Shown piece by piece: positions 9,374 through 44,209 of a stretch of 64,000 bases of DNA (position 1 is the first letter of the stretch; every line of letters starts with the position of its first letter). The stretch comes from Thermicanus aegyptius DSM 12793 (GTDB lineage Bacteria > Bacillota > Bacilli > Thermicanales > Thermicanaceae). The DNA is taken from positions 1,666,283 to 1,730,282 of the forward strand of contig NZ_KI783301.1 of NCBI RefSeq assembly GCF_000510645.1, written 5' to 3'. The notes under the pieces are model-generated. The model worked only from the letters and a program-made list of their open reading frames with translations. It did no database searches and was not told the origin of the DNA. The translations under genes were made by a program, and so were the position numbers.

Positions 9374-10258
9374 ATGAATTTCCAGGAAATCATCCTAACA
9401 TTACAAGATTACTGGGCGAAACAGGGGTGTGTAATCGTGCAGCCCTATGATGTGGAAAAAGGGGCAGGAACGATGAATCCCATGACCTTCCTCCGTGCCA
9501 TCGGTCCTGAGCCTTGGAATGTGGCTTATGTGGAACCTTCACGCCGTCCTGCCGATGGACGATATGGGGAGAACCCCAATCGTCTTTATCAGCATCATCA
9601 ATTTCAAGTGGTGATGAAGCCGTCTCCGGACGACATTATTCCACTTTATCTGGAAAGTTTAGGGGAATTAGGAATTCATCCGTTGGAGCATGATATCCGT
9701 TTTGTGGAAGATAATTGGGAAGCGCCTACGCTGGGAGCTTGGGGATTAGGATGGGAAGTTTGGCTGGACGGGATGGAAATTACCCAATTTACCTATTTTC
9801 AACAGGTCGGGGGAATGGATATGTCCCCGGTTGCCGTCGAAATAACGTATGGCTTAGAACGCCTTGCCTCCTACATCCAAGATAAGGAGAATGTCTTTGA
9901 TCTCATCTATGTCGACGGAGTTACCTATGGTGACGTCTTTCATCAGCCTGAATATGAACATTCAAAATACTCCTTTGAATTAAGTGAGCCGGAACTTCTC
10001 TTTCAGCTTTTCTCCATGTATGAGCAAGAGGCGTTAAGATCCCTGGAAGCGAACCTGGTCTTTCCCGCCTATGATTATGTACTGAAATGTTCCCACACGT
10101 TTAACCTTATGGAGGCAAGAGGAGCCATCAGTGTGACGGAAAGAACAGGATATATCGCCCGTGTCCGGAACTTGGCCAGGGAATGCGCCCGCACCTATTA
10201 CAACGAGAGAGAGCGGCTAGGATTTCCCATGCTCTCAGATAAGGAGGCCATAAAATGA
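9374..10258 (+). CDS. glyQ: Glycyl-tRNA synthetase alpha subunit
   Basis: The 294-residue catalytic subunit of the heterotetrameric bacterial GlyRS starts with [19 protein letters not shown] and contains [29 protein letters not shown] and YGLERLASY. It charges tRNA-Gly with the beta subunit encoded next. The stop overlaps the glyS start by four bases. Expression is controlled by the upstream T-box. Confidence 0.98.
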
Positions 10259-34197: not shown

Positions 34198-34239
34198 AAG
34201 GTATTGCCAAAACGGAAGGGTTCGATATAATGAAGTAGA

Positions 34240-34425
34240 GGAAATAGTTCCGAACAGGTCACTTGTTTTGCCAAGTGTGAAAAGGGAAGCCGGTGAAAAT
34301 CCGTCACGGTCCCGCCACTGTGAGCAGCTAGCCCATTCTCGTTTTTTTACCCACTGTGTCTACGGCATGGGAAGGGAGAGAAGAGGGTGATGATCTGCAA
34401 GTCAGGAGACCTGCCTGTTTGGTAT
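34240..34425 (+). promoter_or_regulatory. Cobalamin riboswitch
   Basis: The conserved cobalamin aptamer elements are present in order: GGGAAGCCGGTGAAAATCCG (34284-34303), CACGGTCCCGCCACTGTGA, and the 3' GTCAGGAGACCTGCC (34401-34415). The element precedes a FecCD-type permease and ATPase, so the transporter is most likely for B12. An intrinsic terminator at 34541 provides the off switch. Confidence 0.95.
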
Positions 34426-34540
34426 GATGCACGCAATCCCCTTCGAGGAAAAGGGTAAGCAGCGATGTCTCCCATCCGTCTCTTTCTTTTTCTTCAATAT
34501 CTAAAGAAAGATATGCTTAAAAAGGACGTTTGCCGCTTAC

Positions 34541-35670: not shown

Positions 35671-35674
35671 AGTG

Positions 35675-36442
35675 ATGCTCAAGATTAATCAAGCATCGGG
35701 GGGATATGGAGAAGAGAAAATGATCCAAGAGGTCTCCTTCCATGTGCGACAGGGAGAGTTTTTTGGAATACTTGGGAGAAATGGAAGCGGAAAGAGCACC
35801 CTTTTGCGCCTGCTTGCAGGTCTTATTCCGTTGATGGGAGGGGAGATCCTGCTTCATGGGAGGACGATCTCCTCTTATTCCCGACGGGAAATCTCCCGTC
35901 TTGTCGCCTTTCTTCCCCAAGATCATTTTATTCCTTATGGCTACACTGTACGGGAAGTGGTATCCATGGGGCGCTATCCCCACAGGCGTGCTCTGTTCTC
36001 TTCCTGGAGTAAAGAGGATGAAAAAATTCTTCAAGAAGTCCTTCATCTGTTTCAATTGCGCGGAATGGAAGATAAGCCTTTTATTCATTTAAGCGGAGGA
36101 GAAAAACAACGGGTTATGTTCGCCAGGGTAATGGCGCAAAAGCCGACCCTCCTTCTCCTCGATGAACCTACCAGCCATCTGGACCTTTATTATCAAATGG
36201 AGATTCTCCAGGAGCTTTATACCTTAGTGAAGGAAAATGGGCTTACGGTGGTAAGTGTTATGCATGATATTAACCTTGCTTCCCTCTTCTGCGATCATGT
36301 TCTTTTATTAAAGGACGGAAAAACGGCTTATATTGGAAGCCCCAACGATGTATTTACTCAAGAGGCGCTAAAAAGGGTCTTCTCTCTCCCCATGTATCCC
36401 GTTATGCATCCGGAGAAGAGAAAACTTCAATTCTTATTATAA
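35675..36442 (+). CDS. btuD: Cobalamin ABC transporter ATPase
   Basis: The 255-residue ATPase has Walker A GILGRNGSGKSTLLRLLAG, Q-loop FLPQDH, signature HLSGGEKQRVMFARVMAQ, Walker B LLLLDEPTSHLD and the switch histidine in VVSVMHDINLA. It energises the adjacent permease. GTG 35672 is an alternative start; ATG 35675 is better spaced from GAGGAGGGGAG. No substrate-binding protein is encoded next to it. Confidence 0.92.
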   Translation: MLKINQASGGYGEEKMIQEVSFHVRQGEFFGILGRNGSGKSTLLRLLAGLIPLMGGEILLHGRTISSYSRREISRLVAFLPQDHFIPYGYTVREVVSMGRYPHRRALFSSWSKEDEKILQEVLHLFQLRGMEDKPFIHLSGGEKQRVMFARVMAQKPTLLLLDEPTSHLDLYYQMEILQELYTLVKENGLTVVSVMHDINLASLFCDHVLLLKDGKTAYIGSPNDVFTQEALKRVFSLPMYPVMHPEKRKLQFLL

Positions 36443-41712: not shown

Positions 41713-41714
41713 AC

Positions 41715-41756
41715 GTGAAATTTTTCACTATGTATAGGTGGAGAATCCCTTATAAA
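41715..41756 (+). promoter_or_regulatory. Candidate class II FNR-type promoter of the hydrogenase-subunit gene
   Basis: GTGA-N6-TCAC lies at 41715-41728, a dyad matching the core of the FNR/CRP site TGTGA-N6-TCACA. TATAAA at 41751-41756 predicts a start at 41763, putting the dyad centre at exactly -41.5, the activating position used by B. subtilis Fnr. A second possible -10, TATAAT at 41797-41802, lies further down. Confidence 0.5.
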
Positions 41757-41812
41757 ATGTTGGCATTTTGTTACATTTCTCCATCATAAAAGAGCGTATA
41801 ATGAAAATAAAG

Positions 41813-41858
41813 GGATTCTATGAGGCATATTTGTGAATTTAATCACAATATAGAATCC
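41813..41858 (+). promoter_or_regulatory. Perfect FNR-type dyad nested in a larger hairpin before the hydrogenase gene
   Basis: TGTGA-N6-TCACA at 41832-41847 is a perfect Bacillus Fnr consensus. It is enclosed by a nine-base inverted repeat, GGATTCTAT (41813-41821) and ATAGAATCC (41850-41858). The structure ends just before the GGGATAGGAG ribosome-binding site. It may be a second regulator site, an RNA hairpin, or both. Confidence 0.55.
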
Positions 41859-41875
41859 GAGGGATAGGAGTGGAA

Positions 41876-42862
41876 ATGATGGGAGAGAAAAAGAGCGTAT
41901 ATGATGCAGCCGAGGAGATGGGCATAGGGGGAGAGGAGTTTCTCAATCTCTGTACCTCCCTTACCTTTTTAGGCGGGATGGATCCCTCCATGCGGGATCA
42001 GATGGTGAAAGCCTTAAAAGAAAAACCCCGCGTTCCGGTGATCTGGATGCAATTTCAAGATTGCACGGGCTGCACGGAGTCCTTTATTCGGAGCACATCG
42101 CCCGGTCCGGTAAGCATCCTATTTGATCTCATTTCTTTGGACTATACGGAGGTGTTGTCGGCTGCAGCGGGAGAGCAGGCGGAAGCCTCCAAACAGGCGG
42201 TCATGGAGAAATATCGTGGAGAATATTTATTGGCGGTAGAAGGAAGCATTCCTGAGGATAGTCGATATCTCATGATCGGTGGAAGGCCGGCCTTAGAAAT
42301 TTTTCAGGAGGCGGCTCGCGGGGCGAGGGCGGTGATCGCATATGGAAGCTGTTCTTCTTGGGGAGGGATTGCGGCGGCTTTCCCCAATCCCACAGGAGCT
42401 CGCCCTATTCGTCAGTTTATTGGAGAAGAAAAACCGGTGATTCTCGTTCCCGGTTGTCCCCCCATTGCAGAAGTCATGGTGGGGGTGATCGCTTATATCC
42501 TTGCTACCGGTGAACTGCCTGAGTTGGATCGGCGAGGGCGTCCTAAAATCTTTTATCGCCATCGGATTCATGAAGTGTGCGATAGACGGCCCGCCTTTGA
42601 CCAAGGTCTCTTCGCAGAATCCTTTGATGATGAAGGGGCCAAGGCGGGGTACTGTCTATTTAAACTGGGATGTAGGGGCACGAGTACCTTTAATTCCTGC
42701 GCGGAACTCCTATGGAATGGGGGAACGGGGTTCCCCATACAGGCGGGGAACATCTGCCTCGGTTGTTCGGAAGAAAATTTCTGGGATAAAGGAAGTTTCT
42801 TTGCTAAAAGGACGAAAGTTCCCGGAAAGCAAACGACGGCAAAAACAACGGTTACCATATAA
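41876..42862 (+). CDS. Orphan [NiFe]-hydrogenase small subunit (group 1-like)
   Basis: The 328-residue protein resembles HybO/HyaA-type small subunits: VIWMQFQDCTGCTESFIRST, IAYGSCSSWGGIAAAFPNPTG, VPGCPPIAEVMVGVIAY, FYRHRIHEVCDRRPAFD, GYCLFKLGCRG, FNSCAELLWNGG and NICLGCSEENFWDKG. The Cys/His ligands for the proximal, distal and medial iron-sulfur clusters appear intact. Two expected parts are missing: where relatives have the twin-arginine RRxFLK signal, this one reads GGEEFLNLC, and the C-terminal membrane anchor is absent. No large subunit or maturation gene lies nearby, and a strong terminator follows. It may be soluble and cytoplasmic, or a relic under FNR-like control. Confidence 0.92.
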   Translation: MMGEKKSVYDAAEEMGIGGEEFLNLCTSLTFLGGMDPSMRDQMVKALKEKPRVPVIWMQFQDCTGCTESFIRSTSPGPVSILFDLISLDYTEVLSAAAGEQAEASKQAVMEKYRGEYLLAVEGSIPEDSRYLMIGGRPALEIFQEAARGARAVIAYGSCSSWGGIAAAFPNPTGARPIRQFIGEEKPVILVPGCPPIAEVMVGVIAYILATGELPELDRRGRPKIFYRHRIHEVCDRRPAFDQGLFAESFDDEGAKAGYCLFKLGCRGTSTFNSCAELLWNGGTGFPIQAGNICLGCSEENFWDKGSFFAKRTKVPGKQTTAKTTVTI

Positions 42863-42880: not shown

Positions 42881-42924
42881 AAGCCAGCTCTTTCCTTCCA
42901 GAAAGGAAAGCGGTTGGCTTTTTT
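42881..42924 (+). terminator. Rho-independent terminator after the hydrogenase gene
   Basis: AAGCCA and CTTTCCTT pair with AAGGAAAG and TGGCTT in a long interrupted stem, followed by six T. The gene is therefore monocistronic. Confidence 0.85.
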
Positions 42925-43213: not shown

Positions 43214-44209
43214 TTGAGCGATCGTTTGGCTCGTCTGTTTAGGATCGTTACTCTGATTCAATCAACCCCGGGGGTGACAGCGAAGCAGTTGGCCGAAAGG
43301 TGTGAAACGACAGAACGGACCATCTATCGCGACCTGGAAATTCTAAGTATGGCAGGAATACCATTTTCCAGCATGGGCCGCGGGAGGGGGTATCAATTTC
43401 AGTCCCACTTTTCCCTTTATCCATTGGATTGGACCGACGAAGAAGCTCTTGCCTTTTCCATGCTTCCCTCCGTCATGAACCAATTGAAGGACCTCCTCCC
43501 CAAAGAATTTCTTTCGGCTTACGAAAAGGTAATGGCCGTCTACTATAAGGAGAAGAGGACAAGGCAAGACATTATTGCTCAGGTGATGGATGTGATCCAA
43601 ATGGGGACTATAGCATTAAATCAGGAAAGAGAAAATCATATGCTGATCCCGATCGTAGAGGCCATTCTGAAGCAAAAAAGGATCCAGGCGGTCTATCATA
43701 CCCAGAGCCGAAACGAAACTTCAATTCGTTTGATCGATCCCTATTATCTCATTCCCAGGGAGTTTCGCCTTTATCTTCTTGGTTTTTGCCATATAAAAAA
43801 TGGGATGCGAATCTTCCGCGTCAGCCGTTTTAAAGAGATTTCCGTATTGGAGGAAACGTTTGAAAAAAATGAGTTTAATGTGAGAAAGTATCTTGAGAAT
43901 ACGTGGTCCATAGAACGGGGGCATGACACCATCCCGTTTAAAGTACGCTTTTCTCCAGACGTGGCCCGTTATGTCAAAGAGGAAGAATTTTATCTGTCCC
44001 CGAAGATGACCGATTTGGAGGATGGAGGTTTGCTATTTGAAGTGGTGGTAAATAAGGATCAGGAGTTTTTACGTTGGCTGTACCAGTACGGTCCGAAAGC
44101 GGAAATCCTGGAACCTGCCTATTATAGAAAAAAGATGAAAGATTTCTTACGTTCCTGGGCGGCCCATTATGAAGGTGCCGGTACACTTCAAGATGAAGGG
44201 GAGGGGTGA
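43214..44209 (+). CDS. WYL-domain transcriptional regulator
   Basis: The 331-residue protein has an N-terminal HTH_11 winged helix (RIVTLIQSTPGVTAKQLAERCETTERTIYRDLEIL), a middle linker, and a WYL domain (residues about 150-215; IRLIDPYYLIPREFRLYLLGFC, FRVSRFKEISVL), followed by the WCX C-terminal part. WYL regulators often respond to nucleic-acid ligands or damage. The start is a TTG at 43214 behind GGGAGGG. Target genes are unknown. Confidence 0.9.
   Translation: MSDRLARLFRIVTLIQSTPGVTAKQLAERCETTERTIYRDLEILSMAGIPFSSMGRGRGYQFQSHFSLYPLDWTDEEALAFSMLPSVMNQLKDLLPKEFLSAYEKVMAVYYKEKRTRQDIIAQVMDVIQMGTIALNQERENHMLIPIVEAILKQKRIQAVYHTQSRNETSIRLIDPYYLIPREFRLYLLGFCHIKNGMRIFRVSRFKEISVLEETFEKNEFNVRKYLENTWSIERGHDTIPFKVRFSPDVARYVKEEEFYLSPKMTDLEDGGLLFEVVVNKDQEFLRWLYQYGPKAEILEPAYYRKKMKDFLRSWAAHYEGAGTLQDEGEG

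Follow-up and report, generated by a model that had tools for sequence, protein, structure and literature searches.

We analysed a 64,000-nucleotide stretch of the Thermicanus aegyptius chromosome (the window; G000:C1:1666283-1730282, on the single 3.66 Mb contig C1) in which a gene at 41876..42862 on the forward strand encodes a lone group-1 [NiFe]-hydrogenase small subunit of 328 amino acids, without a twin-arginine (RR) Tat motif and without an anchor. The frame is open from 41870 to 42862, and AGGAG precedes two candidate starts, ATG 41876 and ATG 41879. The protein scores 388.9 bits against the hydrogenase small subunit model TIGR00391 (cut-off 179.5), matches solved group-1 small subunits at E 7e-105, and is nested among the Bacilli group-1 HydA proteins in our tree. 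A first-pass annotation had called it group 1 and HybO-like. The group holds, but the HybO label is loose: HyaA/HoxK-type structures rank first among the solved matches, above the HybO type, and the proximal site is of the standard four-Cys kind, its CTGC motif having Gly where the O2-tolerant six-Cys subtype has its first extra Cys. All plasmid matches fell below 60% identity, and those listed are annotated hydrogenase small subunits; the viral contigs searched held no relative of the protein.

Like the membrane-bound group-1 small subunits (HydA/HyaA/HoxK; TIGR00391), the window protein has two domains and the ligands of all three clusters, which in HydA too are a proximal [4Fe-4S], a medial [3Fe-4S] and a distal [4Fe-4S] cluster. 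The first-pass annotation had noticed these apparent ligands, and the alignment confirms that 11 of 11 are kept: C63, C66, C159 and C194 for the proximal cluster, H232, C235, C260 and C266 for the distal cluster, and C275, C294 and C297 for the medial cluster, an assignment that we take to carry over from established hydrogenase structures. Unlike its membrane-bound relatives, the protein lacks the twin-arginine motif, the C-terminal anchor, and an adjoining large-subunit or cytochrome b gene, and it differs from them by D233E, Y262F, P269T, and Y272F. An AlphaFold model of the protein (20 rows) has a mean pLDDT of 66, with values below 50 in the C-terminal cluster region.

Where the paralogous HydA of the same genome (L009) has the Tat motif SRRDFLK, codons 18-24 of the window gene (41927..41947, forward strand) read GGEEFLN; position 19 is Arg in 44 of the 44 anchored relatives compared and Gly in the window protein. 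The C-terminus, 'KVPGKQTTAKTTVTI*', stops seven residues past the conserved QTT, upstream of the region of the paralogue's anchor, and the best 19-residue hydropathy is -0.61 in this tail versus 1.69 in that anchor. These comparisons bear out what had been read at first pass, namely GGEEFLN at the twin-arginine site and a missing membrane helix. Residues 5-51 still have residual homology to a Tat signal peptide, which shows that the ancestor of the protein once had one.

We also considered the scenario in which a sequencing correction or another start site would restore a normal RR signal and anchor, and rejected it. We found nothing in its favour. GGEE replaces SRRD in a residue-by-residue alignment with the HydA signal, the tail ends in frame just 5' of the terminator, and both losses are also found in other lone genes, independent of this assembly; an artefact of this kind is extremely improbable.

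Upstream boxes and surroundings of the gene

The window gene forms a single-gene unit with its own intrinsic terminator, a hairpin followed by a T-run at 42881..42920 on the forward strand. It folds at -24.8 kcal/mol (z -3.3), in agreement with the strong terminator described in the first-pass annotation; a simple consensus terminator scan did not list this hairpin.

Upstream of the gene lies the palindrome TTGTGAATTTAATCACAA (41831..41848), which agrees with the Rex operator consensus TTGTGAA-W4-TTCACAA (PMC2883068) at 13 of the 14 specified positions and also contains, at 41832-41847, an exact Crp/Fnr-type box, TGTGA-N6-TCACA, with a chance expectation of 0.03 in the window. The second, weaker palindrome, ACGTGAAATTTTTCACTA (41713..41730), has the same GTGAA-N4-TTCAC core, with three mismatches. 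The TATAAT at 41797..41802 on the forward strand, as read from the sequence, may be the -10 element of a putative promoter that has no convincing -35; a consensus promoter scan found nothing better than chance.

The genome encodes a Rex DNA-binding domain at C1:949790. Three Rex-like boxes with one mismatch each lie upstream of an adhE-type gene (G000:C1:3145234-3145487; L170, L193), and further Rex-like boxes are found near pckA and etfB. The HTH_Crp_2 model finds two Crp/Fnr-family proteins in the genome, neither of which has a cysteine cluster; one is Crp-like and could bind the box at 41831-41848 as well. Of the FNR-type sites of the first-pass annotation, an exact Crp/Fnr-type box is present, but FNR itself is not secured, given the 13/14 match to Rex, the adhE boxes, and the missing cysteine cluster. 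We regard the palindrome as a candidate redox-type operator and slightly favour Rex over Crp/Fnr. This assignment is confined to the window gene. Among the lone genes of other Bacilli described below, that of G035 has an upstream Rex-like box with two mismatches, the boxes of G119 and G173 are weak (three mismatches, p about 0.01-0.03), and no Rex-like box lies upstream of those of G012, G014, and G017; because the boxes are weak or absent in most of these genes, we do not claim regulation as a common trait.

The surroundings include a cobalamin riboswitch at 34239-34432 on the forward strand (130.6 bits), upstream of an ABC-transporter ATP-binding gene at 35672-36442. Between 37383 and 39842, on the forward strand, two thioredoxin-like (ResA-type) genes are followed by genes for a membrane protein and a CcdA-like protein; we read this group as putative cytochrome c biogenesis genes. 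A gene for a WYL/YafY-type regulator adjoins the lone gene in two genomes (43214-44209, forward strand, in the window; L122 5020-6021, reverse strand), which is probably a coincidence.

Hydrogenase operons on the chromosome and lone copies in other Bacilli

A tblastn search of the window with this genome's own proteins found no hydB, hydC or hyp gene, as the first-pass annotation had said of the large subunit and hyp genes. Its description of the gene as an orphan fails at the scale of the genome; the gene is alone only locally. The proposed search of the genome for a group-1 large subunit and hyp genes finds both in a complete hydABC-hyp operon on the same chromosome, about 0.7 Mb from the window gene. 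The hydA and hydB genes lie at C1:1003838-1006581. The operon HydA is 63% identical to the window protein and has its Tat RR motif and anchor intact, and hydB encodes a full-length PF00374 protein (E 2e-233) that is the single group-1 large subunit of this genome. The genes 3' of hydB encode a cytochrome b, a maturation protease, and HypA, B, F, D, and E; names other than hydA and hydB were assigned from reading the sequences.

The chromosome also carries a second hydrogenase operon at C1:327-337 kb, which by our reading would belong to group 2a. The stretch around this cluster (L011; G000:C1:320000-339900) includes hyp genes and genes for Rieske/NifU-like and SIS-domain proteins. Cytoplasmic group-2 small subunits (HupS of group 2a and the HupU/HoxB sensors) likewise lack a Tat signal and an anchor, but they are encoded beside their own large subunit and belong to a different lineage from the window protein, which is only about 33% identical to the group-2a-like copy at C1:328370.

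Searching 398 Bacilli genomes and the closest relatives of the window protein, we found further lone small subunits in six Bacilli genomes (G012, G014, G017, G035, G119, and G173). All six lack the RR motif, the anchor, and an adjoining large subunit. In five of them no large subunit is found within the stretch read; the G119 gene lies at the 3' end of a hyd-hyp cluster, about 11 kb from the G119 hydA. With the window gene included, only one of the seven lone genes, that of G119, is near a hyd operon; the surroundings of the others are unrelated.

The six other copies form one clade with full support (100/100) within the Bacilli group-1 set. Like the window protein they stand alone, lack the RR motif and the anchor, keep all readable ligands, and are changed at positions 233, 262, and 272; they differ from it in having only 48-58% core identity and a shorter, re-made N-terminus. 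The best tree places the window protein beside its own HydA with weak support (94/30), and its branch there is long (0.6 versus 0.16 for the operon HydA). A single clade of all seven lone copies is not rejected (p-AU 0.437), and one or two origins would both fit.

Relatives of the ordinary kind dominate the remaining matches. All 80 of the genome_contigs relatives that we kept carry the RR motif, nearly all with an adjoining large subunit, and the few without one are all on short or incomplete stretches. In the phylum-wide sample the best-scoring matches outside this genome have long open frames, as anchored proteins do, and we saw no obvious additional member of the lone clade among those inspected. 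Many Bacilli also encode a different type of small subunit (L157-L164, L166), 34-37% identical to the window protein, with no RR motif seen and a group-distinct large subunit beside it; the large subunit adjoining this type of copy in G012 and G014 has 469 amino acids.

Among the sampled Bacilli genomes, lone copies occur in 6 of the 20 that have a group-1 hydrogenase and in 1 of the 378 that have none (Fisher 5e-8; we read the counts from tables, and the test ignores the relatedness of the genomes). The sole exception among the 378 is G017, which has a lone copy and no group-1 large subunit in its genome. The G017 gene is also the only broken lone copy: it has a frameshift in a run of C (L124, about 10155-10165), and the codon of one cluster ligand falls at the break. 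Either the gene has decayed since its partner was lost, or the break is an error of sequencing.

Constraint and changed residues

Over the core, comparison of the window gene with its paralogue gave a pS of 0.78, which is saturated, and a pN of 0.19. Because silent sites are saturated and yet pN is only 0.19, the gene is under constraint by purifying selection. The dN/dS analysis that had been proposed with the first-pass annotation is answered in part: the paralogue comparison shows constraint, and with dS saturated no numerical ratio can be computed for the window gene. In the first 51 codons pN is 0.43; the former signal is not conserved, whereas the core is.

Given that the iron-sulfur sites are all kept and that lone copies are found in at least six other Bacilli, the window small subunit has probably been kept as a functional component rather than as a relic. 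The first-pass annotation had listed an early relic among its options; we considered a decaying, functionless duplicate of hydA. The window gene has indeed evolved faster than the operon copy, as its branch length shows, both targeting elements are lost, and one copy elsewhere, that of G017, is broken. However, decay is disfavoured by the intact frame, by the low pN against a saturated pS, by the retention of every ligand, by the gene's own terminator and putative operator, and by the recurrence of lone copies in six Bacilli, as a clade in other families. We consider a relic very unlikely.

At the 63 core positions that are invariant in the 44 anchored relatives, the window protein differs at four (233, 262, 269, and 272), all of them in the C-terminal cluster region. 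The changed sites flank the ligands of the distal and medial clusters in sequence, on the electron-exit side. In the N-terminal domain (residues 52-225), which carries the proximal-cluster ligands and in small subunits is the main contact with the large subunit, 0 of 30 invariant positions are changed. At codons 232-234 (42569..42577, forward strand), the residue after the distal ligand H232 is E233, at a position that is Asp in anchored relatives. Position 233 is Asp in 114 of 115 large-subunit-linked proteins versus Glu, Gln or Asn in seven of seven lone ones, and position 272 is Phe in all seven lone proteins versus 1 of 115 linked ones; a tally of 116 linked proteins included the lone protein of G119, which has a distant large subunit at its locus. 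The lone clade also departs at 233, 262, and 272, among others (hypergeometric p 0.005, for positions chosen after the alignment was seen).

A possible role for the lone subunit

The reading that we rank first, with a probability of about 0.42, is that the window protein is a cytoplasmic alternative to HydA as the small subunit of the operon HydB, made under reducing conditions. The first-pass annotation had offered a subunit for a distant large subunit as one possibility, and this is viable, since a partner operon exists. In R. eutropha, the hydrogenase subunits join in the cytoplasm prior to Tat export (PMC7294309); in principle, then, a subunit without a signal could capture HydB in that compartment. 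Once matured by the Hyp proteins, HydB would combine with the operon HydA or else with the lone subunit. With HydA, the Tat signal would export the dimer and the HydA tail would anchor it to cytochrome b; with the lone subunit, which has no targeting elements, the dimer would stay soluble in the cytosol. The gene's own Rex- or Crp/Fnr-type operator would raise the share of the lone subunit at high NADH or low oxygen, and the cytosolic dimer would pass H2-derived electrons to a soluble partner, or take electrons from one, instead of using the quinone pool. We infer each of these elements: the pairing with HydB, the cytosolic localisation, the regulation, and the electron partner.

Several results support the pairing. 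The group-1 operon of this genome is complete, with hyp genes and a single, intact large-subunit gene. The 11 ligands and the unchanged invariant positions of the N-terminal domain would suit a subunit that still meets a large subunit. Lone genes co-occur with group-1 hydrogenase, the G119 gene lies at the end of a hyd-hyp cluster, and in G017, the exception that lacks a group-1 large subunit, the frame of the lone gene is broken, as it is in none of the other genomes. The Rex-like boxes at the window gene and at the G035 lone gene (two mismatches) are likewise consistent with this role. Against it stand the long branch of the window protein and the distance of six of the seven lone genes from a hyd operon; moreover, should the G017 frameshift be an error of sequencing, that genome would have a working copy in the absence of any group-1 large subunit.

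These same points bear on a free-standing cytosolic iron-sulfur carrier that has no large subunit and shuttles electrons between redox proteins or senses redox state, the repurposed redox protein of the first-pass annotation. Such a carrier would explain why lone genes stand alone in unrelated neighbourhoods and why changes in the distal and medial cluster loops are common to all seven proteins. G017 speaks on both sides, having a lone gene and no group-1 large subunit, but a gene whose frame is broken. The strong co-occurrence of lone genes with a group-1 large subunit argues against a carrier, as does the unchanged N-terminal domain, given that a carrier needs no large-subunit interface. We regard it as possible, but unlikely.

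The evidence for pairing with HydB applies by the same logic to a decoy or regulator that binds HydB or the HydA chaperone in the cytosol and so lessens export of the respiratory enzyme, or to an assembly aid, neither with H2 turnover of its own; a redox-type operator would suit such a switch. A decoy has no need of the 11 ligands, however, and these are kept in every readable lone copy, making this role quite unlikely.

The fold and the cluster set are already known; what appears to be new is the combination of a lone, untargeted, and retained group-1 small subunit with a shared residue signature. We found no account of such subunits in the open literature, with subscription journals outside our search. 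Genome surveys that tally 'hydrogenase small subunit' genes will score the lone copies as hydrogenases. The usual view of group-1 [NiFe]-hydrogenases is that they are exported enzymes of respiration and that the small subunit determines their location. If pairing with HydB is true, the location of the enzyme would be switchable by exchange of the small subunit; alternatively, the three-cluster electron wire may have been taken over for another task. Extended to the family, and here we are doubtful, several Bacilli may have one large subunit and two interchangeable small subunits, with a redox-responsive choice between them setting the side of the membrane on which H2 is handled.
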